Below, one piece after another: positions 1 through 23,072 of a stretch of DNA of 34,409 bases (position 1 is the first letter of the stretch; the number at the start of each line of letters is the position of its first letter). Location: assembly GCA_021793175.1 (NCBI GenBank), contig JAJYTH010000032.1:1-34409 (forward strand). The letters are read 5' to 3'. Made by a program: the position numbers and the translations under genes. A model generated the notes under the pieces. The model saw only the letters and a list, made by a program, of their open reading frames with translations. It had not been told where the DNA came from and made no database searches. This stretch comes from Actinomycetes bacterium. GTDB taxonomy: Bacteria > Actinomycetota > Actinomycetes > Mycobacteriales > Pseudonocardiaceae.

Positions 1-40
1 CATCGCACCGGGGCCGCGTACGCCTCGGGAGGTGGCGCGG

Positions 41-3670: not shown

Positions 3671-3737
3671 CCGAGGACGACGGTCGCGGGAAAAGGGAAA
3701 ACGGTGAACGACCGGGAACCGGGAACAAGGAGGCACG

Positions 3738-5488: not shown

Positions 5489-6720
5489 CCAGCGCCGCTT
5501 GTCTGGCCCACCTGGGCCACCGAGTGACGGGCGTGGACATTGACGCCGACAAAGTGGCTCTGCTCAGTCGCGGCAAGGTGCCCATCGCCGAACCCGACCT
5601 CGACGAGCTGGTGACCGAACGCCTCGCCGACGGCTGCCTGGCGTTCACCACCGACCTCTCCGAACTGGCCTCGGCCGAGCTCGTCCTACTCTGCGTGCCG
5701 ACGCCGGTGGCTTTCGACGGTACGGCCGACCTACGGGCTTTCGACGCCGCCGTCGAGACATTGTCCGATGTGCTCCGGCACGATTGCGTCGTGGTGATCA
5801 AATCGACCGTCCCGGTCGGGACCACGGAGCGCACGGCCCACACGCTGGGCCGGGCCGCGGTCAGTAACCCCGAGTTCCTCAGAGAGGGCCATGCCGCCTA
5901 CGACTTCCTGCATCCCGACCGCATCGTGATCGGCGCGACCGAGGACGAGGCCGCCGACCGGGTGGCCGCGCTCTACGACGAGATCTCCGCGCCCGTGCTG
6001 CGTACCGATCCGGCCAGCTCGGAACTGGGGAAGTACGCCAGTAACGCCTTCCTCGCGCTGAAGGTGTCCTACGTGAACGTGCTGGCCGAACTCTGTGAAC
6101 GACTGGGTGCCGACATCGTCGACGTCGCCGAGTCCATGCGCCTGGACCCGCGTATCGGGTCGGCGTTCCTCTCTCCCGGCCCCGGTTGGGGAGGTTCCTG
6201 CCTGCCGAAGGACACTCGCGCGCTGCTGCGCACGGCCGGGCAGGCCGGGGTGGACTTCGCCGTCCTGGCCGGTGCGATGGCGGCCAACCGTCGGCAACAC
6301 GAGCGAGTGGTGGAGAAAGTGCGGGAAGCGGTCACGGGCTCCCCCAACGGCTCGCTCCACGGCCTGCGGCTGGGCCTGCTCGGGCTGGCTTTCAAGGCGG
6401 GCACGGACGACGTGCGGGAGTCTCCGGCGCTGGCCGTCGCCACGCTGCTGGCCGAGGCGGGTGCCGTATTGACCGGTTACGACCCGGGTGTGAACCGGAC
6501 GACGGACATGAGGCCGGTGCACGTGGTGGACGATCCGACGCTCGTCGCGAAGGACGCCGCCGGTCTCGTGCTGCTGACGGAATGGCCGGAGTTCCGGACA
6601 CTCGACTGGGCTCAGTTGGCGGAGCTGACCGAGCACCCCACGATCGTGGACACCCGGAACCTGCTCGACACCGAGACCGTGACGCGGGCGGGCTTCGCAT
6701 ACCACCGCCTGGGCCGGTGA
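5380..6720 (+). CDS. ugd: UDP-glucose 6-dehydrogenase
   Basis: The enzyme oxidises UDP-glucose to UDP-glucuronate with two NAD+. The 446-residue protein has the N-terminal NAD-binding motif GVVGMGYVG at 27-35, SNPEFLREG near 162-170, K218 and N222 in LGKYASNAF, and the catalytic cysteine C274 in WGGSCLPKD. The C-terminal UDP-binding domain starts around residue 320. ATG 5380, with GGAGG at 5369-5373, is the only ATG or GTG before the Rossmann motif. The gene therefore overlaps the previous reading frame by 109 bases. The N-terminal 22 residues are polar and not part of the fold. It supplies a uronic acid donor, or a UDP-xylose precursor, for the glycan built by this operon. A GDP-mannose dehydrogenase relative is less likely but cannot be excluded. 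Confidence 0.88.
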   Translation: MSDQSDQHHGLPARPGEPARADRLTVGVVGMGYVGLTSAACLAHLGHRVTGVDIDADKVALLSRGKVPIAEPDLDELVTERLADGCLAFTTDLSELASAELVLLCVPTPVAFDGTADLRAFDAAVETLSDVLRHDCVVVIKSTVPVGTTERTAHTLGRAAVSNPEFLREGHAAYDFLHPDRIVIGATEDEAADRVAALYDEISAPVLRTDPASSELGKYASNAFLALKVSYVNVLAELCERLGADIVDVAESMRLDPRIGSAFLSPGPGWGGSCLPKDTRALLRTAGQAGVDFAVLAGAMAANRRQHERVVEKVREAVTGSPNGSLHGLRLGLLGLAFKAGTDDVRESPALAVATLLAEAGAVLTGYDPGVNRTTDMRPVHVVDDPTLVAKDAAGLVLLTEWPEFRTLDWAQLAELTEHPTIVDTRNLLDTETVTRAGFAYHRLGR

Positions 6721-8406: not shown

Positions 8407-9264
8407 CTAGAAACGCAGGTTCGCCAGGTAGTCGTACCCGACCTTCGCGGTGTTCAGCGGATCGGCCGGGTCGTCGTGCTCGACGATGTACTGCTTCATC
8501 GGCCCGATCCAGGTGCGGCGGAACAGCGTGGGCCAGTCGATGGTGCCCGTGCCGACATCGGCCCAACCGCCGTCCTCGCCGCGGTCCTTGACGTGGAACT
8601 GTTGCACCCGCCCGAACCGGCGGTAGTACTCCACCACCGGGTCGGCACCGGCCACCACGAGCCAGTACAGGTCGTACTCCAGGTGCACGTTGCGAGGGCT
8701 GGTGCGCTCGGCGATCACATCGATCGGCCGGACACCGTCGATGGCCTGGTACTCGTGGTCGTGGTTGTGGTAGCCGTAGGAGATCCCCGCCTTGCGGAAC
8801 GCCGCCGCGGCCGCATCGAGCCTGCCCGCGAACGCCCGCCATTCCTCCAGCGTCGAGAAGTCGGCGTAGGCGCAGGCCGCCTTGCGGTAGCCAATCGTCC
8901 TCGCGTCTTCGATGAGCTCGTCAACGTCGGCGCCGTCGAAGTCGACGTGTGCCGAGGTCGCCTTGAGGTGATAGCGGTCGAGCAGTCGCCGGAACTCGGC
9001 GGCCGACCGGCCGTAGGTGCCCGCGAGTTCCACGGTGCGGTAACCGATGTCGGCCAACGCCTCCAGCGTGCCCTCCAGATCGGCCTCGAACAGGTTGCGA
9101 AGGGTGTAGAGCTGGATGCTGATCATCTGCTTGGGGATACGCCTGCCGTACCACCCCCAGTCGGCGTGTGCCGTGCCGCTCATGGCTCCGGCGAGCCCCA
9201 CGGCCGCCGCGGCTCCCGCCGCGGTGCGGAACATCGCTCTGCGGGACAGCCTGGTGTCTCTCAT
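8407..9264 (-). CDS. Tat-exported sugar phosphate isomerase/epimerase-like TIM barrel
   Basis: The 285-residue protein belongs to the AP-endonuclease-2/xylose-isomerase-like TIM-barrel family. A twin-arginine signal peptide is clear: LSRRAMF at 6-12, then an Ala/Gly-rich hydrophobic stretch, with likely cleavage after TAHA at residue 34. The mature part opens with MISIQLYTLRN, the usual first strand. Candidate metal ligands appear in YHNHDHEY, LEYDLYW and HVKDRGE. Relatives include sugar isomerases, epimerases, and keto-sugar lyases or hydratases. Export by Tat suggests folding with a bound metal and activity outside the membrane. The start, ATG 9264, is 8 bases after the preceding stop. It is the last gene of the unit and precedes a hairpin. 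Substrate unknown. Confidence 0.82.
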   Translation of the reverse strand: MRDTRLSRRAMFRTAAGAAAAVGLAGAMSGTAHADWGWYGRRIPKQMISIQLYTLRNLFEADLEGTLEALADIGYRTVELAGTYGRSAAEFRRLLDRYHLKATSAHVDFDGADVDELIEDARTIGYRKAACAYADFSTLEEWRAFAGRLDAAAAAFRKAGISYGYHNHDHEYQAIDGVRPIDVIAERTSPRNVHLEYDLYWLVVAGADPVVEYYRRFGRVQQFHVKDRGEDGGWADVGTGTIDWPTLFRRTWIGPMKQYIVEHDDPADPLNTAKVGYDYLANLRF

Positions 9265-9272
9265 CGCGTCTT

Positions 9273-10280
9273 TCAGTTCCTCTCCGTGCTGAACGCGGCA
9301 TCGAACGCCGCCTCGGGCTTGTCGAACAGCTGTCCGCGGATATAGGTGACGGCCTCGGCAGCCCCTCGCAGCCGGTCCATGCCCGCGTCCTCCCACTCCA
9401 CCGAGATCGGCCCGGTGTAGCCGATGGCGTTCAGGGCTCGAAACGCGCTCTCCCAGTCCACGTCGCCGTGTCCGGTGGACACGAAGTCCCAGCCCCGGCG
9501 TGGGTCGGCCCACGGCAGGTGCGAACCGAGCCTGCCGTTGCGACCGTCGAACCGCTTCTTCGTGTCCTTGCAGTCCACGTGGTAGATGCGGTCGGCGAAG
9601 TCGAGGATGAAACCGACCGGGTCGAGGTCCTGCCACACGAAGTGCGACGGATCCCAGTTGAGACCGAACGCGGGGCGATGGTCCACGGCCTCCAGTGCCC
9701 GTTTGGTGGTCCAGTAGTCGTAGGCGATCTCGCTCGGATGCACCTCGTGCGCGAACCGCACCCCCACCTCGTCGAAGACGTCGAGGATCGGATTCCAACG
9801 ACGTGCGAAGTCGGCGTACCCGTCCTCGATCATCTCGGCGGACACGGGTGGGAACATCGCCACGTACTTCCAGATCTTGGAGCCGGTGAAGCCGACGACG
9901 GTGTCGACCCCGAGCTTCGCGGCGGCCCTGGCGGTGTCGGCCATCTCGGCCGCGGCCCGCTGCCGCACGCCCTCGGGATCACCGTCACCCCAGATACGGG
10001 CGGGAAGGATGTTGCGATGCCGCTCGTCGATCGGGTCGTCGCACACCGCTTGGCCCACGAGATGGTTGGAGATGGTCCACACTTTGAGACCGTAGGAATC
10101 GAGCAGCTTCAGCCGGTTCGCTACGTAGTCCTCTTCGGACAAAGCTCGGTCGACCTCGAAGTGGTCGCCCGAGCAGGCGATCTCCAGCCCGTCGTACCCC
10201 CATTCCGACGCGAGGCGGCACACTTCCTCGAACGGCAGGTCGGCCCACTGGCCCGTGAACAGCGTTACCGGTCGGCTCAT
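9273..10280 (-). CDS. Cytosolic sugar phosphate isomerase/epimerase-like TIM barrel
   Basis: The 335-residue TIM barrel of the AP-endonuclease-2 family has no signal peptide. Likely metal and catalytic residues are E179 in HEVHPSE, D210 and H213 in NWDPSHF, D236 in HVDCKD and E295 in SVEWED, the pattern seen in IolE/tagatose-epimerase relatives. It begins within the stop of the EboF-like gene (ATGA), so it is translated together with it. The protein downstream is a secreted relative, but the two are too different in sequence to be a recent duplication. It probably isomerises, epimerises or dehydrates a sugar or cyclitol. The operon contains an inositol phosphate synthase, which makes a cyclitol-derived substrate conceivable. 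Confidence 0.8.
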
Positions 10281-11677
10281 CGTCGAGCTCCTTCGTCGAT
10301 CCCTTGCAGTTTCAAAAGAAGGTCACGTACATCGGTGGCCGCGATACGGCCCTTGGATTCCACTAAGGACGGTACGGCCGGGTCGGAGCAGAGCAGCACG
10401 GGTCCGTGCTCTGGGGAATCGGGCAGCCGACCGTGGGAACCGCGAACCCACCTCGGGTCAGTGGGGACCACGTTCATGGCGTAACGCAGCCCGACCTTCT
10501 TGCGCACCAGGTTCAGCCCCGCCTTCGCCTTGGCCAGCGAGTCGGTGGGGTCGAAGAACAGCTCCGCGGGGTCGTAGCCGGGTTTGCGGTGGATCTCCAC
10601 ACCGCGCGCGTAATCCGGCGCACGGTCGTCGTCGAGCCAGTAGTAGTAGGTGAACCAGGCGCGTGGTTCGGCCACCGCCACGAACTCCCCCGCCCGCTCG
10701 TGGTCGATCCCGTAACGCGCCTGGGCCTCGCGGTCCAGGACCTCGTCCACCCCGGTCAGGTTCTCGACGATCTTGCGGACTCTTTCCAGGTCCTTCTCGT
10801 CGGCGACGTAGACGTGGGCGACCTGGTGGTCGGCCACGGCGAACGCCCGCGAGGTCCACGGGTCCAGGTACTCCATTCCGTCCTGGGTGTAGACCTCCAG
10901 CAACCCCTCCCTGCGCAACGCGCGGTTGATGTCCACCGGTGTGTCCACGGACGTGATGCCGTACTCCGACAACACCACCACCGTGGAACCCGAGTTCTCG
11001 GCGTCGCGCAGCAACGGCGCCAACGCGGCGTCGACCTCCCTGGCCGCCTTCGCCGCCTGCGGGGAGTCGGGCCCGTGACGTTGCAGGTCGTAGTCCAGAT
11101 GCGGCACGTACGCCATCAGCAGATCCGGGTTGTCGGTGCGCAGGATCCGCCGCGTGGCTCCCACGATCCATTTCGACGACGCGATGGACGCCGTGGGACC
11201 CCAGTACTGGAACAGCGGGAACTCCCCGAACTCGGCGGTGAGCGCGTCGTGCAGATGCGGCGGACGTACGTAGCAGTCCGGTGACTTACGCCCGTCGGCG
11301 TGGTAGATGGGTCGGGGCGTGACCGTGATGTCGGTGGTCATGCCCATCGCGTACCACCAGCACACGTTCGCGGCGGTGTAGTCGGGATACGCGGCGCGCG
11401 CGGTCTCCCACACCTTCGGCCGCTGCACGAGCCTGTTGTGCTGACGCCACAGGTAGATCTCGCCGAGGTCGCGGAAGTACCAGCCGTTGCCGACGATGCC
11501 GTGTTCGGCAGGCAGCGTCCCGGTGAGGAAGGTCGACTGCGCACTACAGGTGACCGCGGGCAGCACCGTACCGAGTTCGGCCTCCCAACCGCGCTCGGCG
11601 ATCTTCGACAGGTTCGGCATGTGCCGAAGCAGCGCGGGAGTCAGGCCCACGACGTCGAGCATCAGCAGTTTCCTCAT
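10277..11677 (-). CDS. EboF-like nucleotide pyrophosphatase/phosphodiesterase
   Basis: The 466-residue protein has the alkaline-phosphatase/NPP fold. D8 in [10 protein letters not shown] is the first metal ligand. T43 in [18 protein letters not shown] is the expected nucleophile, followed by [23 protein letters not shown] at 190-202 supplies Asp and His, and H284 lies in VADHQVAH. The motif that reads S-D-H-G-M in classical NPPs is SEYGI here (237-241), so two metal ligands differ. The substrate may be a phosphodiester or phosphate of a lipid-linked or cyclitol intermediate. The start, ATG 11677, follows GGAGG and overlaps the EboE-like stop. No signal peptide, so it is probably cytosolic. 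Family placement rests on motifs and gene order. Confidence 0.8.
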
Positions 11678-12774
11678 ACGGCTACCTCCGTGCGCGCCCA
11701 GCGCAGTTCTTCGGCGATTCCGGTGGCCAGGTCGGTTCGATGGGCTCGGGGCAGGACCGACCAGGTGTAGGTCTCGACCTCGATGTGCGGCAGCTCGCCC
11801 CGGTCCGCGGCCAGCGCCGCGACCGCACCCGTCAGCACGTCGGTGGTGGATCTCAACGGCGGCTCCGGCCGCGCATGCAGGGGCACGTGGAAGTGCACCC
11901 GCCACGGACCGTTTCTCGGCAGGTCCGTCAGCGCCCGGTCGAGGTCGTCCGCGGCGAGTACCTCACCGGATGCGGAGAGTTCCCGCACCTGGTGGAGGTA
12001 TCGGGGTTCGACGAACTCGGCCAGCGCGGCCCGGGCCGCGGGGTCGGCGGGGTCGTCGACGTGGAGTGCTGCCGACGCCTGCACCTTCACCACGTCGAGC
12101 CCGGCCTCGCGGATGCGCCGGACCTCCTCGGCCGGGTCCGCGAACGACACGGCCAGATGGCAGGTGTCCAGGCACACGCCCACGTATTCGGGATCGACCC
12201 GGCCCGACAGCCACGACACGGCGTCGGCGACGGTGTCGAGCACACACCCCGGCTCGGGTTCCACCGCCAACCGCAGCGGTTTGCCCAGCCGCCGCGACAC
12301 CGTACGGGCGTGGTCGGTCACCTCGGCGAACATCGCCGCCGCGCGGTCGTCCTCGGCCGTGTCCCACGGTTCTCGCCACGCCAACGGCAAGGTCGAGATG
12401 CTGCCGTAGTCGGCGTCCTCGTGCAGCAGGTCGGCCAGTACCGTCAGGCAATCACGGGTGTAGTGCGCCCGGCGCGGGTCGGTCCACGTCGGCACGTACA
12501 CCGAGTGCTTGACCACGGCGTCGTGGAAACCGCCGTACGGGAAAGCGTTCAGCGTCTGCACACCCAGGCCCCTGGCCTTCAGTTCACCGGCCAGCCGAGC
12601 CCGGGCCGCGGCGTCGGAGGCGAGCGCGGAAGCCACCTCGGCGGCCAGCCACAGCCCCACACCCAGCACATCGACACCGAGTTCCTCCCGCACTGGGGTG
12701 GCGTAGGTGTCGAGCTGCGCGACGATGCCGTCGAGGTCCTCGGCGGGATGGACGTTCGTACAGTACGAGAGCAC
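11674..12774 (-). CDS. EboE-like TIM-barrel protein
   Basis: The 366-residue protein begins LSYCTNVHPAEDLDGI, the opening I associate with EboE ('metabolite traffic protein') and xylose-isomerase-like TIM barrels. Conserved acidic and His residues occur in LAVEPEPGCVLDT, GVCLDTCHLAVSF and VHFHVPLH. EboE is essential for export of the scytonemin monomer in a cyanobacterium, but its chemistry is unknown. The start is GTG 12774, three bases after the TatD-like stop, and the stop overlaps the next start. It sits between the EboB-like and EboF-like genes as in other Ebo clusters, which strengthens the call. Confidence 0.82.
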   Translation of the reverse strand: MLSYCTNVHPAEDLDGIVAQLDTYATPVREELGVDVLGVGLWLAAEVASALASDAAARARLAGELKARGLGVQTLNAFPYGGFHDAVVKHSVYVPTWTDPRRAHYTRDCLTVLADLLHEDADYGSISTLPLAWREPWDTAEDDRAAAMFAEVTDHARTVSRRLGKPLRLAVEPEPGCVLDTVADAVSWLSGRVDPEYVGVCLDTCHLAVSFADPAEEVRRIREAGLDVVKVQASAALHVDDPADPAARAALAEFVEPRYLHQVRELSASGEVLAADDLDRALTDLPRNGPWRVHFHVPLHARPEPPLRSTTDVLTGAVAALAADRGELPHIEVETYTWSVLPRAHRTDLATGIAEELRWARTEVAV

Positions 12775-12777
12775 GGT

Positions 12778-13641
12778 TCACTTCCTCGCGCCGCGCAACA
12801 CCGAGTTGCCCTCGAACGTCTCCGCGTTCGGTGCGGCCTCCGGCAACGGGTCGAGCATCAGTTTTCCGCTCTGCCCGTAGAACTCCACGGGGTTTCCCCA
12901 CAAGACTTTGTCCACATCGGATTCGGAGAAACCCGCCTCCAACATCGCCTTGCCCGTGCGGTAGGTCTTGAGCGGGTCCGAACGCCCCCAGTCGGCGGCG
13001 GAGTTCACCAGCATCCGCTCGGTGCCGTACTCTTGGAGGATCGACACCATGCGGTGCTCGTCCATCTTCGTGTCGGGGTAGATGGAAAAACCCATCCAAC
13101 AACCGGACTCGGCCACAAGGCCGACAGTGACCTCGTTGAGGTGGTCCACCACCACCAGGGACGGGTCGATACCGGACTCGCGCACCACGTCGAGGGTGCG
13201 CTTGGTCCCCGACAGCTTGTCGCGGTGCGGCGTGTGCACCAGCACGGGAAGCTCGTGTTCGATCGCGAGGCCCAGCTGGTGGGTGAACACCTTCTCCTCC
13301 GCCTCGGTCATCGAGTCGTAGCCCACCTCGCCGACGGCCACGACGCCGTCCTTGGCGAGGTAGCGCGGCAGGACGTCGAGCACCTCGACACAGCGGGGAT
13401 CGTTGGCCTCCTTCGGGTTCAACGCGATCGTGCAGTGGTGGCGGATGCCGAACTGTGACGCGCGGAACCGTTCCCAGCCGATGAGCCCGTCGAAGTAGTC
13501 GGTGAACGATCCGACGTTCGTGCGCGGCTGCCCGAGCCAGAACGCCGGTTCCACGAGAGCACGGACGCCCGCGGCGTACATGTCCTCGTAGTCGATGGTG
13601 GTGCGCGACGTCATGTGGATGTGCGGATCGAAAATCCTCAT
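12778..13641 (-). CDS. EboB-like TatD-family metal hydrolase
   Basis: The 287-residue amidohydrolase-fold protein has the TatD metal sites: H7 and H9 in FDPHIHM, E in VAVGEVGYDS, H in VLVHTPHRD, H in VVVDHLNE and D in VNSAADWG. It lacks a signal peptide. TatD proteins are metal-dependent hydrolases or nucleases, and the EboB branch is found only in Ebo clusters, with unknown substrate. ATG 13641 overlaps the stop of the preceding fused gene, so translation is coupled. All visible metal ligands are intact, so it should be active. Confidence 0.84.
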   Translation of the reverse strand: MRIFDPHIHMTSRTTIDYEDMYAAGVRALVEPAFWLGQPRTNVGSFTDYFDGLIGWERFRASQFGIRHHCTIALNPKEANDPRCVEVLDVLPRYLAKDGVVAVGEVGYDSMTEAEEKVFTHQLGLAIEHELPVLVHTPHRDKLSGTKRTLDVVRESGIDPSLVVVDHLNEVTVGLVAESGCWMGFSIYPDTKMDEHRMVSILQEYGTERMLVNSAADWGRSDPLKTYRTGKAMLEAGFSESDVDKVLWGNPVEFYGQSGKLMLDPLPEAAPNAETFEGNSVLRGARK

Positions 13642-15080
13642 CGGACGGGCCCCTCCTCGCGGGTGACGGAGCCGAGCGCGAGAATCGCCTCGGCGTCGGC
13701 GGGCACGGCACGACCCGCGGCCTTCCTCTCGGCCGCGTAGTCACTGACCATGCGTTGCAACTCGGCATCACAGCGACGGGCCAACCCGGACACCGCCGCC
13801 GTCGGAACTCCGGTGAACAGGCACTTGAGCACACCGTGTCGCCAGTTGTGGTCGTCGAGCCGGTCGGCGGCGAACGGCCCGAGCGCCGCCGCCACGAGGC
13901 CGGTGTCGTTGGCCCGCAGCGCATCGGTCACCAGCCGCACCCCGGCCTCGACGACCTGCGCGTCCTCGGTCGGCAACAGGTGCAGGTTGCGGAGGACACC
14001 GCGCCGCTCGGCACCGTCGCCGTAGCGGTACAGCTGCTCGACCTCCTCGACCAGCACATCGGCGTCCAGCACCGACGCCAGTGCCGCCAACAGCCTGCCC
14101 CGGGCACGGTCGTCCACGGTGCCGTACACGAATCCGTTGGCGTCGACTTCCGGACGCACGGGCCCACGACCGACCTTGCGGCCCACGGCCGGGAACAACG
14201 TCCGAATACGGGTGGGTTCCGCGCGGACGGCCGCCTCCGCGTCGACCACCCAGTCGGCCGCGTCCAGCGCTGTCTTCGCACGCCGGGCGACATCGGGCGC
14301 GGCGTGGCTGTGCCGGGGCAGCTCTACCGAGGCCAGACCGGCGTAGCCGACCTCGGCCAACGCTCCCAGCGTCTCGGCGAGGTCCAGTTGCCCCTGCCCG
14401 AACTCCAGGTGTTCGTGCACACCGGGCAACATGTCGTCCAGTTGCACGTTGAACAGCAGGTCCCCGGCCTTACGCACGCATTCGGCCGCGCTGACCGGTT
14501 CCACGGCGACGCAGTGTCCGACGTCGATCGTGATGCCCAGCCGTTCCGGGTCGCCCAACTCCTCCCGCAGCCGCAGGACCTGGTCGAGGTGCTGCACGTA
14601 GTGGCCGGGTTCGGGCTCCAGCGCGAACCGGGCCCGCGTACCGTCCGTACCGTCCAACACGGCCGCCACGCCGTCGAGCAGTCGCCGCCACGCGGTGTCG
14701 TCGTCGAGACCCGGCGGGGCCACTCCCGACCAGAACGACACGCAGTCCGCGCCCAGGTCCTCGGCGATCTCGGCGGCCCGGCGCAGGAAGTCCACCCGCG
14801 AACCGGGTTCGTCGGACAGGAGGATCGGTTGATGTTTGCGCCACGGGTCGAGCAGGAACCGCGCCCCGGTCTCCACCACCACGCCGAGCTCGAGCTCGGC
14901 CAGCCGCGCCGCGACCCGCCGGGTCTGTGTCGCCACGTCGTCGGCGAACGGGTCCAGGTGCGCGTGGTCCAACGTCAACGCCACCCCCGAATAACCGAGG
15001 TCGGCGATGACGGCCAGGGCGTCGTCGAGCCGGTGATTGGCGAAACCGTTGGTGCCGTAACCGAATCGCAGTGTGCTCAC
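13638..15080 (-). CDS. TIM-barrel isomerase fused to a C-terminal EboA-like domain
   Basis: The 480-residue protein has two parts. Residues 1-280 form an AP-endonuclease-2-type TIM barrel with E155 (LEPEPGHY), D186 and H189 (TIDVGHC), D215-D216 (VQLDDM) and E253 (SVELPRH) as candidate metal ligands. Residues 285-470 are helical and contain YRYGDGAERRGVLRNL and HNWRHGVLKCLFTGVP, which match EboA, a separate small protein in other Ebo clusters. EboA has no known activity. The start is GTG 15080, overlapping the prenyltransferase stop. The open frame continues to 15635 inside that gene without homology. The fusion suggests that EboA works physically with a sugar- or cyclitol-modifying barrel. 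The EboA assignment is from pattern recall and needs a profile search. Confidence 0.78.
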   Translation of the reverse strand: MSTLRFGYGTNGFANHRLDDALAVIADLGYSGVALTLDHAHLDPFADDVATQTRRVAARLAELELGVVVETGARFLLDPWRKHQPILLSDEPGSRVDFLRRAAEIAEDLGADCVSFWSGVAPPGLDDDTAWRRLLDGVAAVLDGTDGTRARFALEPEPGHYVQHLDQVLRLREELGDPERLGITIDVGHCVAVEPVSAAECVRKAGDLLFNVQLDDMLPGVHEHLEFGQGQLDLAETLGALAEVGYAGLASVELPRHSHAAPDVARRAKTALDAADWVVDAEAAVRAEPTRIRTLFPAVGRKVGRGPVRPEVDANGFVYGTVDDRARGRLLAALASVLDADVLVEEVEQLYRYGDGAERRGVLRNLHLLPTEDAQVVEAGVRLVTDALRANDTGLVAAALGPFAADRLDDHNWRHGVLKCLFTGVPTAAVSGLARRCDAELQRMVSDYAAERKAAGRAVPADAEAILALGSVTREEGPVR

Positions 15081-15943
15081 GTCGGGCTCACCTTCCTCGC
15101 GAGTCGTCGGGCCAGTGGTAGAGCCGTCGCCAGAAAGGCCGCGGAACGCACGGCACCGTGCCGTGCCGCGACGGTGGCTTGCAGCGGGACCATGCCGTGG
15201 ATGCCGGCCTTCGTGGCCTGGCGCGCGTGCCGGGCCGACGGTTCCCGCAACGCCGCGTACTGGGCCCTGCCCACGGAGGTCGCGTAGGTTCCGGCCAACA
15301 CCGCCGTGAACGCACGACGCAACCGACCACCGGATCGCCGGGCCCCACCGGTCCCCCGGGTCGCCAACGTGGTCGCGGCCGCTGTCGTCGTGAGAGCACC
15401 GCCCGCCGTCCCCGGCGAGGTGCCGTGGACCTCCCCGGCCGACAGCGCGGTGACACCCAGGGTGTGCACGCCGAGCGCCGCCGCCGCGGGCAGGGCCGTG
15501 CGTTCCCCGCCGCCCGCGCCGAGCAACACGTCCAGTGCCCGACACGCGGCCATGCCGACCGGGCCGAACGCGGTGCCCTTCAACACTGTGTCGTAGGCCC
15601 AGACACAGGCGGCCAGAGGCACCGCGGTGCGCCATGCCCGGGCACCGCCGCCGAGCCGGGCGAGCACGAGCCCCGCCGCGGTGAGCGCGCTGCCGGTGGC
15701 CAGGGCCGCGCCCGCGCTCACCCGTCCGGACGGGATGGGCCGTTCCGGACGCTCCACGGCGTCCAGGTCTCGGTCGGCCCAGTCGTTGAGCGCCATACCC
15801 GCCCAGTAGAACGCCGCCGACGCCGTGGGCAGCAACAGGCGTCTGCCCCGCAGTGGTGTCCCGGCCGCCGCACCACCGGCCACGGTGTCACCCACGACCG
15901 TCAGGGCGGCCGGTGCCCGGACGAGTTCGACGTAGGCGCTCAC
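15077..15943 (-). CDS. UbiA-family prenyltransferase (EboC-like)
   Basis: The 288-residue membrane protein carries the UbiA Asp-rich motif NDWADRDLD at 53-61, followed by ERPERPIPSGRVS, and the second motif around YDTVLKGTAFGP. Several hydrophobic segments are typical of the family's helical bundle. It would move a prenyl chain from a polyprenyl diphosphate to an acceptor at the cytosolic membrane face. Ebo clusters always include such a protein (EboC). I recall a UbiA-type family named after Streptomyces SCO3242, next to a second inositol phosphate synthase, as the closest kind; this should be checked. GTG 15943 overlaps the cyclase stop, so a cyclitol phosphate acceptor is an attractive inference. 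The C-terminal 70 residues are Arg/Ala-rich and may be amphipathic. Confidence 0.83.
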   Translation of the reverse strand: MSAYVELVRAPAALTVVGDTVAGGAAAGTPLRGRRLLLPTASAAFYWAGMALNDWADRDLDAVERPERPIPSGRVSAGAALATGSALTAAGLVLARLGGGARAWRTAVPLAACVWAYDTVLKGTAFGPVGMAACRALDVLLGAGGGERTALPAAAALGVHTLGVTALSAGEVHGTSPGTAGGALTTTAAATTLATRGTGGARRSGGRLRRAFTAVLAGTYATSVGRAQYAALREPSARHARQATKAGIHGMVPLQATVAARHGAVRSAAFLATALPLARRLARKVSPT

Positions 15944-17088
15944 AGCGTGCCCGCCCACGACACGAGCTCGGCGAACTGTTCGCCGAGCCGATGCTCCTCG
16001 GTACCCATCGGGTCCTTGAAGAAGAACGCCAGCGCTCCCAGCGGTCCAGTGTGCCGCGCGGCGTGCGCGGCCGCCGTGAACCGTGCCAGGTCGAGCACCA
16101 ATGGAGCGGCGAGGGAGGAGTCGTAGCCGGTCCACGTGAACTGCAGGCTCATCCGCACCCCGAGGAAACCCTCGAACGACACGTGATCCCAGGCGATCTT
16201 CTGCTCCCCCAGGTCGGGAACGTTGTCGATGTGCAGGGGCGCGGTGACCTCCCTGCCCAGCAGCGTGGAGAGTCCTCGGCCCTTGGACTCGAGTTTGCTG
16301 CTGGCGTGCTCGGCGTCGGCCAGTGTCCTGCCGTCACCGCCACCGAGCAGGTTCGTGCCCGTCCACGACCGCACCGCGAGCGCCCTGGTGGTGAACATCG
16401 GCGCGAGCGCGCTGCGCATGAGCGTCTCGCCGGTCTTGCCGTCCGATCCCGCGTAAGGCAACTCCTGTCTCTCCGCCAGTTCCCGCAGCGCGGCGAGGCG
16501 GATTCCCGTGGACGGAGTGAAGTCGACGAACGAGCATCCCGCCCGCAACGCCGCATAGACCGAGACGGAACTCGGTGGCAACACCGTCCGCCCCGGCACC
16601 GCCATGGCCGCCTCCAGCGCGTCGAGGCTGCCGTGTTCGGGCAGGGTGGGGAACACGGGTTCGGTGGACGACACGTTGACCACCACGACCCTGGTGAGGT
16701 TGTTGCGCCGGGCGAAAGCGGTGATGTCGTCGGCGAGAGCTCGGGCCGCGTCGGACTGGGTGCCCACGTGAGTGGCCGGGTGGTAACCCGGGCGTATTTC
16801 CTCATCCACTTCGGACAGAGAAGGCCGTACCGCCTCGAAGACCCGATACGGGATCACACCGGACTCGGTGAGCAGTTCGGCCCTTTTCTCCAACGAGGTG
16901 TCGACGATGTCGTGACCGCCGACGTGGATCTCGTCCCACCCGGGCAGTGGAACGTTCCGGAACTGTTGTTGCGCGCTGACACAACCGACGTCGGGAACTA
17001 TTCCGGACCGTAACGCGAGCAATCCCGTGATCGCCGTAGTGGCGACCGACCCCCGCGCACCGATCAACCACACCCCTGTGGGTGCCAT
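15940..17088 (-). CDS. Inositol-3-phosphate synthase family cyclase
   Basis: The 382-residue protein has the NAD-binding start GVWLIGARGSVATTAITG (residues 5-22) and the hallmark block GSDGKTGETLMRSALAPMF used for phosphate binding and catalysis in myo-inositol-1-phosphate synthases. The reaction would be glucose 6-phosphate to inositol 3-phosphate, with NAD+ reduced and reoxidised. It is the first gene of the Ebo-like operon and is coupled to the prenyltransferase gene. ATG 17088 fits the start of homology. A longer GTG start at 17142 adds only unconserved sequence. The housekeeping inositol synthase of actinomycetes is usually elsewhere, so this is probably a paralogue with a dedicated role. 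Another cyclitol or a different sugar phosphate as substrate is possible. Confidence 0.85.
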   Translation of the reverse strand: MAPTGVWLIGARGSVATTAITGLLALRSGIVPDVGCVSAQQQFRNVPLPGWDEIHVGGHDIVDTSLEKRAELLTESGVIPYRVFEAVRPSLSEVDEEIRPGYHPATHVGTQSDAARALADDITAFARRNNLTRVVVVNVSSTEPVFPTLPEHGSLDALEAAMAVPGRTVLPPSSVSVYAALRAGCSFVDFTPSTGIRLAALRELAERQELPYAGSDGKTGETLMRSALAPMFTTRALAVRSWTGTNLLGGGDGRTLADAEHASSKLESKGRGLSTLLGREVTAPLHIDNVPDLGEQKIAWDHVSFEGFLGVRMSLQFTWTGYDSSLAAPLVLDLARFTAAAHAARHTGPLGALAFFFKDPMGTEEHRLGEQFAELVSWAGTL

Positions 17089-17266: not shown

Positions 17267-20200
17267 TCACGAGACGACGGGTATCGGTGTGTCTCCGTTG
17301 ACGTGGCCGAGCAGCGCTCGCCCGTCACGCACGAACGTGTCCCTCACCTCGTCGTCGGACACGTGCTCGGCCGTGGCGACGAACAACCGCATCGCCACCG
17401 CGGCCTGCACCGATCGATCCCGGTTGCTCGCACGCTCGGCCCAGGCCAGCTGCACCGACAGGATCACCCTGTCCACCGTGTCGAGCCTGTCCTCCGCCGC
17501 GAACCGTGCGATCAGCGACGACACGTCGTCAAACGACGTCGTCGAGGTGAACGCCAATGTGTGCTCGGCGGTGTTGCCCGCCGTGTCGGTGGCGCTCACG
17601 GCGAGCGAGTGTTCGCCGAGGTCGAGCCGATGCAACGGCACAGTGGTACCCGATTCGAGTTCCTCCCCGTCGAGCACCGCCGACGAGGACTCCACCCCGG
17701 AGGTCTCGTCCCGGGCTTCCCAGGTGATGGTGAGTTCCTCGGCGTCGCCGTAGACGAAACCGTCGGCGACACCGGCGACCATCACCGTCGGAGCGGTCCC
17801 GTCAATCTTGACCGTGACGGCCTTGTCGTTCTCGACGTTGCCCGCCTTGTCCACGGCGCGGTACAGCATCGTGTGCTCACCGTCGCCACCGATCACCACC
17901 GTCTCGGTGTAAGTGGTCCAGTCCCCACCGTCGAGGCTGTACTCGATGCGTTCGACTCCGGAACCCTCGTCCGCAGCTGACAGGGTGACCCCGACCTCGC
18001 CGTCGTGCCAGCCACTGTCGCCGGGCTCGGCGAACGACGCCTCGGTGACCGGGGCCGTGGTGTCGAGGTCGCGGATCTGGACGTTGCGGAACCAGACCTC
18101 GTCCTCGTCACCGTGGTTCTGCAGCCCCACGAAACCCTGTGTCAGGTCCCGGTTCGTGTCGGTGCTGACGAAATCGTTGATCAAGGTGTCGTTGAGGTAC
18201 ACCTGGATCGTCTGGTCTCGGACCACGATCTCGTAGGAGTTCCACTCCCCCGGCGGGTTGAGTGCCGCGTCCCGCGCCTCCAGGTCCGCCGACTGGAATT
18301 CGTAGATGGCACCCGTGGTCTTCTCAGGGTCGTCGGTGGGGTCGATCTGGATCTCGTATCCCTCGTTCACCGCCACCCACGGATCGTCGCCGGGGTCCGG
18401 GAAGCCGACGAACACGCCGGAGTTGTCGTCACCGGCCATCTTCCAGTCGAGCTTGAGGCTGTAGGCGCCGAACTGCTCGCCGTACCACAGCAACCCCATG
18501 CCACCGACGGACTTGATGGTGCAGTCCTCACCCAGTTCGAACGAACCGGGGCCGGCCTGATTCCAGTTCTCCAGGCTCGCCGAGGTGCCGTCGAACAGCA
18601 TCCGGTAGCCCTCCTCGGGCTGCGCGGGCTCGCACTCGGCCGGTGGCTGATCGGGTCGGGCCACACCGGCGCCGTTGATGTGGAGGACGTCCACGTCGAA
18701 CAATCCTCCATCACCCTCACCGCGGAACACCAGGTACAACGGCTGGGTACCACCCGGATCGGTGACCTCCACGGGCCCGATGTCGGTGTAGGAGTCCCAA
18801 CCACCCGTGTTCGGCACGTCGACCGTGTGCACCACGGGACCGTCCAGCGCGCCCGCGCGGGCCTCGATCGTGCCGCCCGCACCGCCCGAGGACACGCCGT
18901 AGGTGATGCTGTCGACGCCCGTCAGGTTGACCGGGTCGAGCTTGATCCAGTCACCGTCCTCGATGTGACCGACTCGTTTGCCACCGCTGGCACCAGCGTC
19001 CTCGACGACCTCGACGCCCTCCAGCTCGGTGAAGAACTCGGCCTGCTTGATCTTCGGCTGCAGGATGTTCTGTCCCGAACCGGTCAACGGGGGCGCGTTG
19101 TCGGGGCCGCCGTTGTCGGTGTAACTCGCGTCGATGACACCGAAGATGTCGGCGTCGAGCCCGTGGCCCTCGTCGGCGGGAGTCTCGATGAACCCTTCAC
19201 AACCGGACGCCCTCGACAGCGGGTGACCGTGGTTGTCGTGGCCGAGGATGTACTCCACCGTGACCTTCGAGCAGTCGATCTCCCCGTCCTCCGGGTCGGT
19301 CACCGTGACCTTGAACGGCACGGAGTCACCGAATCCGAAGAACCCGCCGTTGACAGGTGTCTCCAACATCACCGTCGGCTCGGTGTTGCCCACGGTGATC
19401 ACCACGCTCGCGCTGCCGGTCAGTCCGGTGGAGTCGGTCACCGACAGCTTCGCGTGGTACTGCCCGTTCTCGGTGTAGGTGTGGCTCACCGGTCCGGCCT
19501 CGGTGGAGTCGACTTCGCCGTCACCGTCGAAGTCCCACTCGTAAGTCAGCTCGTCTCCGTCGGCGTCCTCGGCCGACGGGTCGAACGTGACCTCCAGCGG
19601 CGCCTGGCCCGAGGTCACATCAGCCGACAGCGACACACGCGGCGTGCGATTGCCCTGCGTGTAGTCGATGCGGTACAACGCCGAGTCGTCCGCCCCACCG
19701 AAGTAGCTGCTGCCGTAGTCCAACACGTACAGCGACCCCTCGGGGCCGAACTCGATGTTCATCGGCCGGACCAGTTCCATCGAGTCGAAGAACGGCTCGA
19801 TCGCGCCGCGCTCACCGTTCTCGCCGACCTCGATCGTCTTGATCCAGCCGCGGTCCCATTCGTAGGCGAAGTTCTTGCCGTCGTAGTACTCGGGGAACTT
19901 CGTGTTCGACTCCAGTTCCGGGTCGAAGCGGTAGACGGGGCCGCCCATCGGCGACTCGCCGCCGGTACCGAATTCGGGCACCGACCCGCCGTCGTACGGG
20001 ATCCACGCCGGCTGCATGGGGGGCAGTTCGGTCAGGCCCGTGTTGTTCGGGCTCTGATTGACCGGTGCCGAGCAGTCGAACGCCTCGCCGGAGGTGCCGC
20101 TTTCGAAGTCGTAGTCGATGAACGGCTCGTTGTCACCGACACAGTACGGCCAACCGTAGTTGCCCGGTTCGGTCACGAGGTTGAACTCCACGGTGCCCGC

Positions 20201-21862
20201 CGGACCACGGTCGGGATTGGCCGAACCGGCGTCGGGGCCGTAGTCACCGACGTAGATCCAGCCCGTCTCCTGGTCCACCGCGAACCGGAACGGGTTGCGA
20301 AAGCCCATCGCGTAGATCTCGGGCCGGGTCTTCTCGGTCCCCGGTTCGAACAGGTTGCCCTCGGGGATGGTGTAGCTGCCGTCCTCCTGCACCGTGATGC
20401 GCAGGATCTTGCCGCGCAGGTCGTTGGTGTTGCCCGAGCTGCGCTGCGCGTCGAATGCCGGGTTGCGGTCCGAGCGTTCGTCGATCGGCGTGTACCCGTC
20501 CGAGGCGAACGGGTTCGTGTCGTCGCCCGTGGACAGCAGCAGGTTGCCGTCGGCGTCGAAGTCGATCTCACCACCGGCGTGGCAGCACGTGCCCCGGTCG
20601 GCGGGCACCTGGAGGATCTGCTGCTCGCTGGACAGATCCAGCGTTCCCTCGTCGGTGAGTTTGAACCGCGACAGCTGGTTGTGGCCCTTGAACGGTTCGA
20701 AGTCCTCCGGGCTGCCGTTCTCCGGCGCATCACCGGGCGGGGTGTCCAGCGGCGGCGCATAGTAGAGGTAGACCCAGTGGTTTTCGTCGAAGTTCGGGTC
20801 GACCGCGATGCCCTGCAGTCCGTCCTCGTCGTGGTTGTACACGTCGAGGTCGGCAGCCACCGAGGTGGTGCCTTCCGGCGTGGTCAAAAAGACCTGACCG
20901 TCGCGGGAGGTGTGCAGTACCCGCCCGTCCGGCAACACCGACAACGCAATCGGCTCACCGGTGACCTCCGACCCTCTGGCCAGGGTGATCTGGTCGAAGT
21001 CGGAGTCGGTGGGCACCTCCGTGCCCGGGCCGTCGGTGGTCGAGCACTCGGCGTCGGTCAGTCCCGCCGCATAGCGGATGCCGCCGGCGAGATGCGCGAG
21101 GAACTCCGGCTCGGCGAAGGACTCGACGGTGTGTCCGCCGCCGGTGTACCAGGCGCGGCCGCCGCTGTTCTCGTGGCACCAGGCGATCGGGTGGTCGTCC
21201 CCCATCGCCCCGGAGCCGGGGTCGTAGCTGCCCTCGTCGAGCGAGGCCAGCACACGCACGTCCTGCCTCGGGTTCTCCCGGAAGTTGTACCACTCGTCGG
21301 CGCGAACCCACTGTTCCGGAAGGTCTGCTGTAGACGGATGCTCTCCATCTTCGACGGTGACGGTCGCTTCCTGGATGTGCGGGTGGGAGTCGAAGTAGGC
21401 GCCTACGAGGTCGCCGTACCACGGCCAGTCGTACTCGGTGTCGGACGCGGCGTGCACGCCCGCGTAGCCACCGCCCTCGGAGATGTAGCGTTCGAAGGCG
21501 GCCTGTTGGTCGTCGTTCAGCACGTCGCCGGTGGTGGACAACCACACGACGGCGTCGTAACCGGCGAGATTGTCGTCGGTGAATGCCTCGGCGTCCTCCG
21601 TGGCGTCCACGGCGAAACCGTGCTCGGCGCCCAGCCGCTCGATGGCCTCGATCCCCGCGGGAATCGAGTCGTGCCGGAAGCCCTCGGTCTTCGAGAAGAC
21701 CAGCACGCTGGCATCGGGTTGAGCCTGTGGCTCCGCGGCGGCGGTGAACGTGAGTCCACCGCCGCCCAATCCCGTACACAATGCCAACGCCGCCACGGCC
21801 GCGGACTTCCAACCGCGTCGGGACGCTCGGTTCGTCTTTCCGGTACTACTGCTTCGTTGCAT
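17267..21862 (-). CDS. Secreted multidomain protein: ThuA, sorbosone-dehydrogenase propeller, PKD, CBM, DUF1080, Ig-like, FIMAH-like
   Basis: The 1531-residue protein begins with a Sec signal (about residues 1-43, ending AAA). Residues 50-265 are a ThuA domain (FSKTEGFRHDSI, YAGVHAASDTEYDWPWYG). Residues 285-730 are a PQQ glucose/sorbosone-dehydrogenase-type propeller (GLQGIAVDPNF, TCCHAGGEIDFDADGNLLLS). About 740-830 is a PKD domain (YEWDFDGDGEVDS). About 950-1085 is a CBM6-like carbohydrate-binding region. About 1100-1285 is a DUF1080/LamG-like domain (EGYRMLFDGTS, NNSGVF-type core). Two Ig-like repeats follow, and the last 75 residues (SFDDVSSLIARFAAEDRLD) resemble a FIMAH domain. ThuA and DUF1080 are tied to 3-keto-glycoside metabolism. 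The protein probably binds, oxidises or cleaves an extracellular glycoside. AGGAG precedes ATG 21862. The gene follows the Gfo/Idh gene by 49 bases. Confidence 0.85.
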   Translation of the reverse strand: MQRSSSTGKTNRASRRGWKSAAVAALALCTGLGGGGLTFTAAAEPQAQPDASVLVFSKTEGFRHDSIPAGIEAIERLGAEHGFAVDATEDAEAFTDDNLAGYDAVVWLSTTGDVLNDDQQAAFERYISEGGGYAGVHAASDTEYDWPWYGDLVGAYFDSHPHIQEATVTVEDGEHPSTADLPEQWVRADEWYNFRENPRQDVRVLASLDEGSYDPGSGAMGDDHPIAWCHENSGGRAWYTGGGHTVESFAEPEFLAHLAGGIRYAAGLTDAECSTTDGPGTEVPTDSDFDQITLARGSEVTGEPIALSVLPDGRVLHTSRDGQVFLTTPEGTTSVAADLDVYNHDEDGLQGIAVDPNFDENHWVYLYYAPPLDTPPGDAPENGSPEDFEPFKGHNQLSRFKLTDEGTLDLSSEQQILQVPADRGTCCHAGGEIDFDADGNLLLSTGDDTNPFASDGYTPIDERSDRNPAFDAQRSSGNTNDLRGKILRITVQEDGSYTIPEGNLFEPGTEKTRPEIYAMGFRNPFRFAVDQETGWIYVGDYGPDAGSANPDRGPAGTVEFNLVTEPGNYGWPYCVGDNEPFIDYDFESGTSGEAFDCSAPVNQSPNNTGLTELPPMQPAWIPYDGGSVPEFGTGGESPMGGPVYRFDPELESNTKFPEYYDGKNFAYEWDRGWIKTIEVGENGERGAIEPFFDSMELVRPMNIEFGPEGSLYVLDYGSSYFGGADDSALYRIDYTQGNRTPRVSLSADVTSGQAPLEVTFDPSAEDADGDELTYEWDFDGDGEVDSTEAGPVSHTYTENGQYHAKLSVTDSTGLTGSASVVITVGNTEPTVMLETPVNGGFFGFGDSVPFKVTVTDPEDGEIDCSKVTVEYILGHDNHGHPLSRASGCEGFIETPADEGHGLDADIFGVIDASYTDNGGPDNAPPLTGSGQNILQPKIKQAEFFTELEGVEVVEDAGASGGKRVGHIEDGDWIKLDPVNLTGVDSITYGVSSGGAGGTIEARAGALDGPVVHTVDVPNTGGWDSYTDIGPVEVTDPGGTQPLYLVFRGEGDGGLFDVDVLHINGAGVARPDQPPAECEPAQPEEGYRMLFDGTSASLENWNQAGPGSFELGEDCTIKSVGGMGLLWYGEQFGAYSLKLDWKMAGDDNSGVFVGFPDPGDDPWVAVNEGYEIQIDPTDDPEKTTGAIYEFQSADLEARDAALNPPGEWNSYEIVVRDQTIQVYLNDTLINDFVSTDTNRDLTQGFVGLQNHGDEDEVWFRNVQIRDLDTTAPVTEASFAEPGDSGWHDGEVGVTLSAADEGSGVERIEYSLDGGDWTTYTETVVIGGDGEHTMLYRAVDKAGNVENDKAVTVKIDGTAPTVMVAGVADGFVYGDAEELTITWEARDETSGVESSSAVLDGEELESGTTVPLHRLDLGEHSLAVSATDTAGNTAEHTLAFTSTTSFDDVSSLIARFAAEDRLDTVDRVILSVQLAWAERASNRDRSVQAAVAMRLFVATAEHVSDDEVRDTFVRDGRALLGHVNGDTPIPVVS

Positions 21863-21911
21863 TGGTACCTACTCCTGTCCCCCACCCTCGTGGGATACAG
21901 TCGCTTTCGGA

Positions 21912-23072
21912 CTAAACCTGTCTGTACATCGATCCGTTCTTCGCGCTCTGCTCAACCGCCTCCAGCACGTGCTGCACGCGCAGGCCGTCGGCGAAACTCG
22001 GTTCCACTCTCTTCCCCGTCCCGATCGCGGTGAGCAGGTCCGCGATCTCGTGGGTGAATGTGTGCTCGTAGCCCAGGACGTGCCCCGGCGGCCACCAGGC
22101 TTCGAGGTAGGGGTGGTCGGGTTCGGTGACGACGATGCGTCGGAAACCGCCGGTCTCGGCGGGTTCCTCACCGTCGTGGAACCACAGCTCGTTCATCGAC
22201 TCGAAATCGAACGCCAGGCTGCCCTTCGACCCGTTGAGCTCCAGCCGCATGGCGTTCTTGCGTCCCAGCGCGTAGCGCGTGGCCTCGAAACTGCCCACCG
22301 CGCCAGCGGAGAACCGGGCCATGAACACCGCGCAGTCGTCCACCGTCACGGCCTCCGGACCATCGTCCGAGGGCCGCTGCCGCACGAACGTCTCGGTCAA
22401 CCCGGACACACCCGTGATCGTCTGTCCGGTGACGAACTGGGCGGCGTCGATGATGTGCGCACCGATGTCGCCGAGCGCTCCCGAACCCGCCTGCTCCTTG
22501 CGGAGCCGCCAGGTCATCGGCGCCTCCGCGTCGGCCAGCCAGTCCTGGAGATACGTGGCGCGCACGTGCCGTAGCTCGCCGAGTCTTCCCTCGTCCACCA
22601 GTCGCTTCGCCAGCACCAGCGCGGGCACTCTGCGGTAGTTGAACGCCACCATCGAGTACACGCCGCGTTCGCGGGCCCGTTCGGCCGCGGCCACCATGCG
22701 CTCGGCCTCCTCGACCGTGTTGGCCAGCGGCTTCTCACACAGCACGTGCTTGCCCGCCTCCAACGCCGCGATGGCGATCTCGGCGTGGCTGTCACCCGGG
22801 GTGCAGATGTCGATCAGGTCGACGTCCTTGCGTTCCACGAGCTCGCGCCAGTCGGTGGAGGAGGCCTCCCAGCCCATGCGTTCGGCCGCTCGTGCGGCAC
22901 GTTCCGCGTCCCGTCCGCCGAGCACCACCATTCTCGGGGTGTACGGCACGTCGAAGAAGCGGGCGACGCTGCGCCACGCCTGCGAGTGCACGGCCCCCAT
23001 GAAGGCGTGCCCCACCATGGCGACCCCGAGTTCGGGCCGCCTGCCGTCGTTACTGGATTTCTGTTCTGTCAC
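21912..23072 (-). CDS. Gfo/Idh/MocA-family oxidoreductase
   Basis: The 386-residue NAD(P)-dependent oxidoreductase has an N-terminal Rossmann domain whose glycine motif is GHAFMG (residues 21-26), the strand DLIDICTPGDSHAEIA, and the family marker CEKPLA with the catalytic Lys. The C-terminal alpha/beta substrate domain follows. Such enzymes oxidise or reduce sugars and cyclitols, often at C3 of a glycoside. It is coupled to the binding-protein gene by a GTGA overlap, so it very likely acts on the imported sugar. Inositol 2-dehydrogenase is a possible activity, but no iol genes are nearby. ThuB-like 3-keto-sugar formation or reduction fits the ThuA-bearing neighbour better. Confidence 0.85.
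   Translation of the reverse strand: MTEQKSSNDGRRPELGVAMVGHAFMGAVHSQAWRSVARFFDVPYTPRMVVLGGRDAERAARAAERMGWEASSTDWRELVERKDVDLIDICTPGDSHAEIAIAALEAGKHVLCEKPLANTVEEAERMVAAAERARERGVYSMVAFNYRRVPALVLAKRLVDEGRLGELRHVRATYLQDWLADAEAPMTWRLRKEQAGSGALGDIGAHIIDAAQFVTGQTITGVSGLTETFVRQRPSDDGPEAVTVDDCAVFMARFSAGAVGSFEATRYALGRKNAMRLELNGSKGSLAFDFESMNELWFHDGEEPAETGGFRRIVVTEPDHPYLEAWWPPGHVLGYEHTFTHEIADLLTAIGTGKRVEPSFADGLRVQHVLEAVEQSAKNGSMYRQV

Follow-up and report, generated by a model that had tools for sequence, protein, structure and literature searches.

Results

An ebo cluster in which INO and TIM probably take the place of EboD

A gene in a 34,409-nucleotide stretch of actinobacterial DNA (contig JAJYTH010000032.1 of assembly GCA_021793175.1, Pseudonocardiaceae; hereafter the window) encodes a xylose-isomerase-like barrel (TIM) fused to an EboA domain, and lies in an ebo-type operon that encodes no EboD and begins with INO, a homologue of myo-inositol-phosphate synthase. 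Among the genomes that we searched, every one with ebo genes but no EboD has both a TIM and an INO homologue. We consider it probable, judging from sequence, that INO and TIM together replace EboD in this inositol-type cluster. The proposed replacement is a new result that is strong as a pattern, with a putative chemistry. The ebo genes, which affect the export of the precursor of the sunscreen scytonemin, are spread over many bacterial phyla and are also present in some algal plastids (passages in PMC6282210 and PMC5133447). Within the main texts of the open-licence literature we found no paper tying ebo genes to inositol, and a count of the word "inositol" gave 0 for each of PMC5133447, PMC6282210 and PMC9235831; a search of the open-licence literature for papers comparing sugar phosphate cyclases also found none. 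Public records already annotate single genes of the set, such as INO beside an SCO3242-type prenyltransferase on Streptomyces plasmids.

The window operon runs in the order INO, UbiA-type prenyltransferase, TIM-EboA fusion, EboB, EboE and EboF, followed by two more barrels (Table 1). It shares EboA, EboB, a UbiA-type prenyltransferase, EboE and EboF with the ebo operon as described (eboA-F; PMC5133447), but differs in having no EboD, in containing INO and an extra barrel, and in the fusion of EboA to that barrel. A profile search found no EboD in the window genome (assembly 91% complete), the best match to the EboD profile (157.7 bits) being AroB; the sole dehydroquinate synthase match of this genome passes the aroB model and adjoins a shikimate-kinase-like gene.

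EboD never occurred together with INO or TIM in 113 stretches (80 named genome loci, 14 plasmid loci, 18 actinobacterial loci and the window). The named genome loci comprised 63 with EboD, 4 with INO and TIM, 2 with TIM only and 11 with neither (8 of these 11 without core genes in view). The 14 plasmid loci, examined out of 51 plasmid records with EboB, comprised 8 with EboD and 6 with INO and TIM, the latter from two Streptomyces, three haloarchaea and Gemmatirosa. Among the 18 actinobacterial loci, INO and TIM were found in 16, TIM only in 1 and neither in 1.

We also searched whole genomes with TIM, EboD and INO profiles, using the window genome and 61 of the 80 named-locus genomes. EboD was present in 52 of these 62 ebo-positive genomes (best matches 480–614 bits) and TIM in exactly the remaining 10 (271–410 bits), all of which also have INO (282–626 bits). 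The ten TIM genomes belong to the Actinomycetota (6: the window genome, Lentzea, two Kibdelosporangium, Actinocrispum and Saccharothrix), the Gammaproteobacteria (1, a metagenome-assembled genome, MAG), the Bacteroidota (2: Lewinella and Leeuwenhoekiella) and the Planctomycetota (1, a Planctomycetaceae MAG). Outside the ten, the only TIM match at E ≤ 1e-25 was one of 102 bits in an EboD-type genome. A tblastn search with the barrel of the window had first revealed the TIM genes of Lewinella and Leeuwenhoekiella. In 23 INO-type actinobacterial genomes the best match to the EboD profile was at most 188.5 bits (with none in G318), compared to 585–647 bits in three EboD-type control genomes, one of which (Aureibacter) is itself a row of the profile. 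The remaining genes are common to both cluster types: the ebo loci of the 10 EboD-less genomes all contain EboA and EboB, and 9 contain EboE and EboF, while EboA was in the fetched locus of 51 of the 52 EboD-type genomes (all except L104).

TIM and INO are mostly neighbours or members of one cluster (they adjoin in G279), and sometimes lie elsewhere in the genome. Lewinella and Leeuwenhoekiella have ebo clusters without EboD; on a different contig, INO and TIM share a neighbourhood, separated by about 5.4 and 5.7 kb. The actinobacterial cluster L036 contains neither INO nor TIM, and the same genome has both, adjacent, on another contig (L150). INO falls outside the fetched stretch and on the same contig in Lentzea (L086, 22.6 kb from the UbiA-type gene) and in the gammaproteobacterium (L091, 11.8 kb from TIM). 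One genome (G128) has two ebo clusters, of which the first (L023) has INO and the other (L026) has TIM without an adjoining INO. For the EboD type, a Nostoc locus (L113) has its EboD elsewhere in the genome. Three haloarchaeal plasmids (L043, L047 and L048) carry INO, EboB, a UbiA-type gene, EboF and two TIM-like barrels in ebo-like clusters. In Deinococcus EboG accompanies EboD, and in Gemmatirosa, where no EboA was found, an EboG-like frame accompanies INO and TIM; the exchange of EboD for INO and TIM is independent of that between EboA and EboG.

Two further arrangements were observed. Saccharothrix has a second adjacent INO-TIM pair (G410:C19:154690-156660), of which the TIM (235 bits) is more divergent and the INO (558 bits) close. 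A Thiobacillaceae MAG contig (L115) carries EboD, EboA and EboB, then an EboG-like frame (49 bits) and a second EboB-like gene.

The INO and TIM enzymes and a proposed route to the ring

INO passes the gathering scores of both Pfam models of its family (PF07994, 167.7 bits; PF01658, 102.7 bits), with lysines K265, K269, K297 and K358 present. It scores 19.7 bits against the mycothiol INO1 model TIGR03450 (cut-off 638) and is thus not a member of that family. Its nearest solved structure is the myo-inositol-1-phosphate synthase of Archaeoglobus fulgidus (1u1i; full-length, E 1e-62), whose lysines 274, 278, 306 and 367 are all conserved in INO; we take lysine 278 to be a catalytic-site residue of the Archaeoglobus enzyme. 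The four lysines are kept in all 36 ebo-linked INOs, and also in 7 other INOs aligned. Lysines 274, 306 and 367 are named as important in the Archaeoglobus inositol-phosphate synthase in a passage of PMC5614600 (citing Neelon et al.), which also describes the canonical reaction as proceeding via a tightly bound inosose phosphate. Unlike the A. fulgidus synthase, INO is linked to ebo genes, and it is far from the second of the two INO genes in the window genome, which lies on contig C126 and scores 72 bits with the ebo-linked INO profile. INO is an inositol-phosphate-synthase homologue with a putative function in converting glucose-6-phosphate to inositol-1-phosphate.

The nearest solved relatives of TIM by profile are MJ1311, UlaE, IolI and ketose 3-epimerases. 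IolI isomerises inosose. TIM shares the barrel fold and the Glu, Asp and Glu metal positions with IolI, UlaE and the ketose 3-epimerases (PF01261 superfamily). The canonical site of IolI and the ketose 3-epimerases presumably has four metal ligands, Glu, Asp, His and Glu; the window TIM differs in that Glu155, Asp186 and Glu253 are present but the His of the HxxD motif is Gln213, and it passes no equivalog model. Hence, where a preliminary description of this gene, made from the window alone, had proposed a complete TIM barrel with metal ligands, the barrel stands (PF01261 match to residues 23–271, E 8.4e-34, 117.8 bits against a gathering score of 31.1) and the complete canonical metal site does not. 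We aligned 62 TIM rows (39 from ebo-type loci, 3 from further INO-TIM loci and the 20 best from Planctomycetota). E155, E157, D186, H189, H222, H224 and E253 are invariant in all 62, and the HxxD His is Gln in 32 (the window included) and His in 27.

We propose that INO would cyclise glucose-6-phosphate, giving a cyclitol with a six-membered ring (inositol or inosose phosphate), and that TIM would then move a keto group or a stereocentre to yield the same ring that EboD makes in one step. TIM would in that case act on a ketocyclitol derived from the product of INO. The UbiA-type enzyme would prenylate the ring, and EboB, EboE and EboF would finish the product. A tentative extension, to which we give distinctly less credence than to the replacement, is that the ebo pathway is biochemically convergent, with either an EboD-type cyclase or an INO/inosose-isomerase relay leading to the same six-carbon cyclitol from glucose-6-phosphate. 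The published guess of a seven-carbon, sedoheptulose-derived ring would then be wrong, and the product would be a prenylated inositol-like lipid in bacteria and haloarchaea.

Alternatively, the same swap could serve a different product: EboD-type clusters would make a seven-carbon cyclitol from sedoheptulose 7-phosphate, a route proposed in 2016, INO/TIM-type clusters an inositol-based one, and the prenyltransferase and the remaining enzymes would tolerate both. The placement of EboD near enzymes that use sedoheptulose 7-phosphate (PMC5133447, in its section 3.4.2) favours this alternative. So does the UbiA-type enzyme of the window, which passes the SCO3242 prenyltransferase model (NF045897; 370.5 bits against 260) and misses the EboC model (NF035940; 140.2 bits against 250), such that the prenyltransferases may differ by cluster type. 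We find the alternative rather unlikely, in view of the four proteins (EboA, EboB, EboE and EboF) shared by both cluster types and of the extra barrel in the INO type only, as if it were required to reach a common intermediate.

The case for and against a replacement

Further evidence on co-occurrence came from 392 Planctomycetota genomes that had not been picked by ebo genes. TIM (E ≤ 1e-45) was found in 197 and EboD (E ≤ 1e-70) in 83, and both in 4, compared to 41.7 expected if they were independent; these may be undercounts, as scoring was limited to the 6 top-ranking TIM and 4 top-ranking EboD candidates of each genome. Among the 20 best TIM loci, 3 (L162, L168 and L176) lie beside UbiA-type or EboF-type genes in a haloarchaeal-like order. 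Among the 20 best EboD loci, 6 have an ebo neighbour and 14 have none within about 1.5 kb.

Several observations weigh against a replacement or limit how firmly it can be held. Fisher's p for the Planctomycetota exclusion (1.5e-23) ignores relatedness and is thus overstated, and four of the 392 genomes (G508, G544, G664 and G742) have both TIM and EboD. No recognised ebo gene lies within about 1.5 kb of 17 of the 20 best Planctomycetota TIM loci, and copies of TIM dispersed in this way make a one-to-one interpretation less secure for the phylum. The Planctomycetaceae MAG among the ten TIM genomes (G445) has its TIM and INO on different contigs. Locus-level thresholds were set by eye. Four of the 10 genomes (those of the window, the gammaproteobacterium, Lewinella and Leeuwenhoekiella) supplied rows to the TIM profile (A8) and so match by construction; the other six contributed no row. 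INO is not exclusive to the INO type, as 5 of the 52 EboD-type genomes also have an ordinary INO at 242–268 bits. In the three haloarchaeal loci we found no EboA and no clear EboE. Finally, the chemistry of TIM is unsure because the metal His is replaced by Gln in 32 of the 62 rows.

On the most skeptical interpretation there was no replacement: EboD was lost, and INO and TIM, as genes of inositol metabolism, are nearby by chance or track lineages. That INO and barrel proteins are common families speaks for it, as do the neglect of relatedness in the exclusion statistics and the Planctomycetota TIM loci without ebo neighbours. We nonetheless judge it improbable. At 271 bits or above, TIM is in 10 of 10 EboD-less and 0 of 52 EboD-type genomes, across four phyla, and the pattern includes Lewinella, Leeuwenhoekiella and the Planctomycetaceae MAG, where TIM and INO lie away from the fetched ebo locus. 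Furthermore, INO and TIM are linked to ebo genes in actinobacteria, haloarchaea and Gemmatirosa.

The TIM-EboA fusion

The fused protein is confirmed as real. The preliminary description had given the bounds of the gene exactly; it lies on the minus strand, and at each end it shares 4 bases with a neighbouring gene, UbiA-type upstream and TatD-type downstream. The C-terminal region was described as EboA-like, and this assignment was upheld by profile, pairwise BLAST and residue tests. Residues 323–466 match the EboA domain model NF035938 (E 1e-46, 158.6 bits, cut-off 50), whereas the score against the full-length EboA subfamily (NF035937; 62.4 bits, cut-off 320) makes the protein a carrier of the EboA domain only and not a member of that subfamily. 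It aligns with the standalone EboA proteins of Azospirillum (39% identity over 123 aa, E 5e-15) and Aureibacter (E 1e-16). Eleven residues are invariant across 51 of the 74 standalone EboA proteins found, and the fusion keeps 10 of them, including all of the charged ones (four Arg, two Glu and one Lys); the Asn of the NPYPA motif is lost. A genome search found the fusion protein as the only EboA match in the window genome. The same open fusion occurs in 13 loci (the window included), and the guanine-plus-cytosine content by codon position is even across the joint and the halves on either side of it; these observations rule out an artefact of frameshift or assembly.

The AlphaFold model of the C-terminal part is helical, like that of standalone EboA. 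Helices begin at about residue 261, which includes the last helix of the barrel, and the EboA domain proper spans about 289–469, as against the 285–470 first proposed for a helical domain. Confidence in the EboA half is high (predicted local distance difference test, pLDDT, mostly ≥ 90), with weak stretches near residues 301–320 and at the last residues. The barrel half is only partly confident (shallow alignment; predicted template modelling score 0.68), and hence we take no domain arrangement from the model.

The fusion itself is not new, having been in print since 2016: Yurchenko et al. (PMC5133447, section 3.4.4) report EboA hits in various Actinobacteria as hybrids with an N-terminal xylose-isomerase-like region. 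The domain order is identical, with no difference at the level of the fusion, and that passage (data not shown) names no species, genomic context or INO link. In our sample, 18 of 396 Actinomycetota genomes carry an EboA domain (the window genome counted), and the 17 others gave 18 loci, of which 1 is fused (L033), 16 have a separate barrel and EboA, in different frames or split by stops, and 1 (L036) has no barrel. Fusion as a general rule is therefore rejected. Within the genus of the window, 9 of 12 genomes have an EboA domain and 6 of the 8 congeneric loci examined are fused (L137 and L142, which have runs of N at the gene, were not counted). All five actinobacterial loci among the 80 named loci (Lentzea, two Kibdelosporangium, Actinocrispum and Saccharothrix) are fused as well. 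The survey thus confined the fusion, among the sampled loci, to the Pseudonocardiaceae and one further genome of the order; in the remaining Actinomycetota loci examined, separate genes encode the two domains, or a barrel was not found.

Adjacency of the tim and eboA genes in the operon may be all that was needed for the fusion to arise, by loss of a stop with function unchanged. The order TIM-EboA-EboB in 17 of the 18 actinobacterial loci, together with the confinement of the fusion, favours a neutral origin of this kind, as does a barrel tree of 39 rows on which the 13 fused rows require two changes. The maintenance of the fused frame over at least six genera speaks against it. We regard a neutral fusion as quite plausible, if somewhat short of an even chance, and a barrel carried on an EboA scaffold as equally possible. 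With a scaffold, the fusion would physically tether TIM, as the second of the ring-making enzymes, to an assembly of EboA and EboB, perhaps with EboC.

The role of EboA

The near-constant neighbour of EboA is EboB, rather than a barrel or a prenyltransferase: EboB lies directly downstream of EboA in 104 of 106 loci and not in the other two, both from Arenibacter, and in the window EboB starts at 13641, next to the end of the fusion at 13638, placing the EboA domain directly upstream. The AlphaFold model of a standalone EboA is a helical solenoid (mean pLDDT 96.7). An earlier proposal, in a passage of PMC6282210, has EboA organising a membrane-located EboCAB complex, and the modelled solenoid fits this role. 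Judged by its shape, EboA most probably serves EboB and its partners as a non-catalytic solenoid scaffold. What counts against this is that a Foldseek comparison with the PDB returned 0 of 642 matches at E ≤ 0.001, and thus no significant solved relative. The best VIA-align match (Z 8.8, root-mean-square deviation 5.4 Å) is a HEAT-like solenoid, which by the tool's own note possibly reflects only a common arrangement. An EboA profile found 9 PDB sequences at E ≤ 1; as far as can be told from their names, all are designed helical-repeat proteins or fusions with such proteins, and in none did a single stretch pass. A known enzyme fold for EboA was set aside, as the Foldseek, VIA-align and PDB profile searches gave no claimable homologue; EboA may nevertheless have a known fold.

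The preliminary description had suggested that EboA works on the same intermediate as the barrel, so that EboA would be an enzyme and the fusion would channel the intermediate. Fusion partners often act in one pathway step, and the charged invariants (seven of the 11) are strictly conserved and all present in the fusion. As a general rule the suggestion does not hold: 51 of the 52 EboD-type genomes have EboA in the locus and no TIM (apart from one weak match of 102 bits), and EboA present in so many barrel-less genomes cannot generally depend on the intermediate of a barrel. Moreover, EboA was not found in the three haloarchaeal clusters, Deinococcus and Gemmatirosa have an EboG-like frame instead, and the solenoid model has no significant Foldseek match. 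We therefore consider an enzymatic EboA unlikely, and the earlier interpretation as a whole partly supported.

Genes of the operon and its surroundings

Coordinates of the operon genes and of the two halves of the fusion are collected in Table 1.

Table 1. Features of the inositol-type ebo operon in the window.
Feature	Position	Strand	Basis or remark
INO, myo-inositol-phosphate-synthase homologue	15940–17088	minus	382 aa; Archaeoglobus-type; four catalytic-site lysines kept
UbiA-type prenyltransferase, SCO3242 family, EboC counterpart	15077–15943	minus	NCBIfam
TIM barrel-EboA fusion gene	13638–15080	minus	GTG start at 15080, stop at 13638; 480 aa
Xylose-isomerase-like barrel (TIM), residues 1–275	14256–15080	minus	PF01261 and TIM alignment
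EboA domain, residues about 289–469, all-helical solenoid	13674–14216	minus	NF035938, invariant residues, structure model
EboB, TatD-like hydrolase	12778–13641	minus	Similarity and context
EboE	11674–12774	minus	NF035939, 436 bits against a cut-off of 250
EboF, type I phosphodiesterase/nucleotide pyrophosphatase	10277–11677	minus	Similarity and context
SPI1, further xylose-isomerase-like barrel	9273–10280	minus	Near 6 of 16 INO-type actinobacterial clusters
SPI2, xylose-isomerase-like barrel	8407–9270	minus	Tat-like signal read by eye

The flanks of the cluster (window positions 17267–23072 and 8407–10280; loci L022–L030) encode a giant ThuA/sugar-dehydrogenase-like protein, a Gfo/Idh oxidoreductase and the two further barrels. 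Within the fetched stretches, and at thresholds set by eye, ThuA, SPI1, Gfo/Idh and SPI2 genes occur in 10, 6, 6 and 9 of 16 INO-type actinobacterial loci, respectively, compared to 5, 0, 3 and 1 of 63 EboD-type loci. On the plus strand at 32–6720, frames that by eye resemble a heptose bisphosphate phosphatase, a family 9 glycosyltransferase, an HldE-like kinase/adenylyltransferase and a UDP-glucose dehydrogenase are possible heptose genes in an actinobacterium.

Neighbouring ebo genes have been reported in Saccharomonospora, together with UbiA-297 (PMC9235831); in its text EboD is called a dehydroquinate synthase in general, and the word "isomerase", like "inositol", occurs 0 times. SCO3242 (a transferase) and SCO3243 (a myo-inositol phosphate synthase) are listed as genes of the CDA antibiotic cluster in a Streptomyces coelicolor transcriptome study (a passage in PMC3610822); by family name, the two may belong to an INO-type ebo cluster.

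Implications for the ebo pathway

A Leeuwenhoekiella and two of three Planctomycetes were reported in 2016 to lack EboD, with a deletion or a draft assembly left as possible reasons (PMC5133447, in the passage concerned). The exchange of EboD for INO and TIM offers an account of such members, based on other members of these groups than the 2016 strains. More broadly, an exchange that proves reproducible would constrain the ring chemistry of the ebo product by way of an enzyme family with a known reaction.

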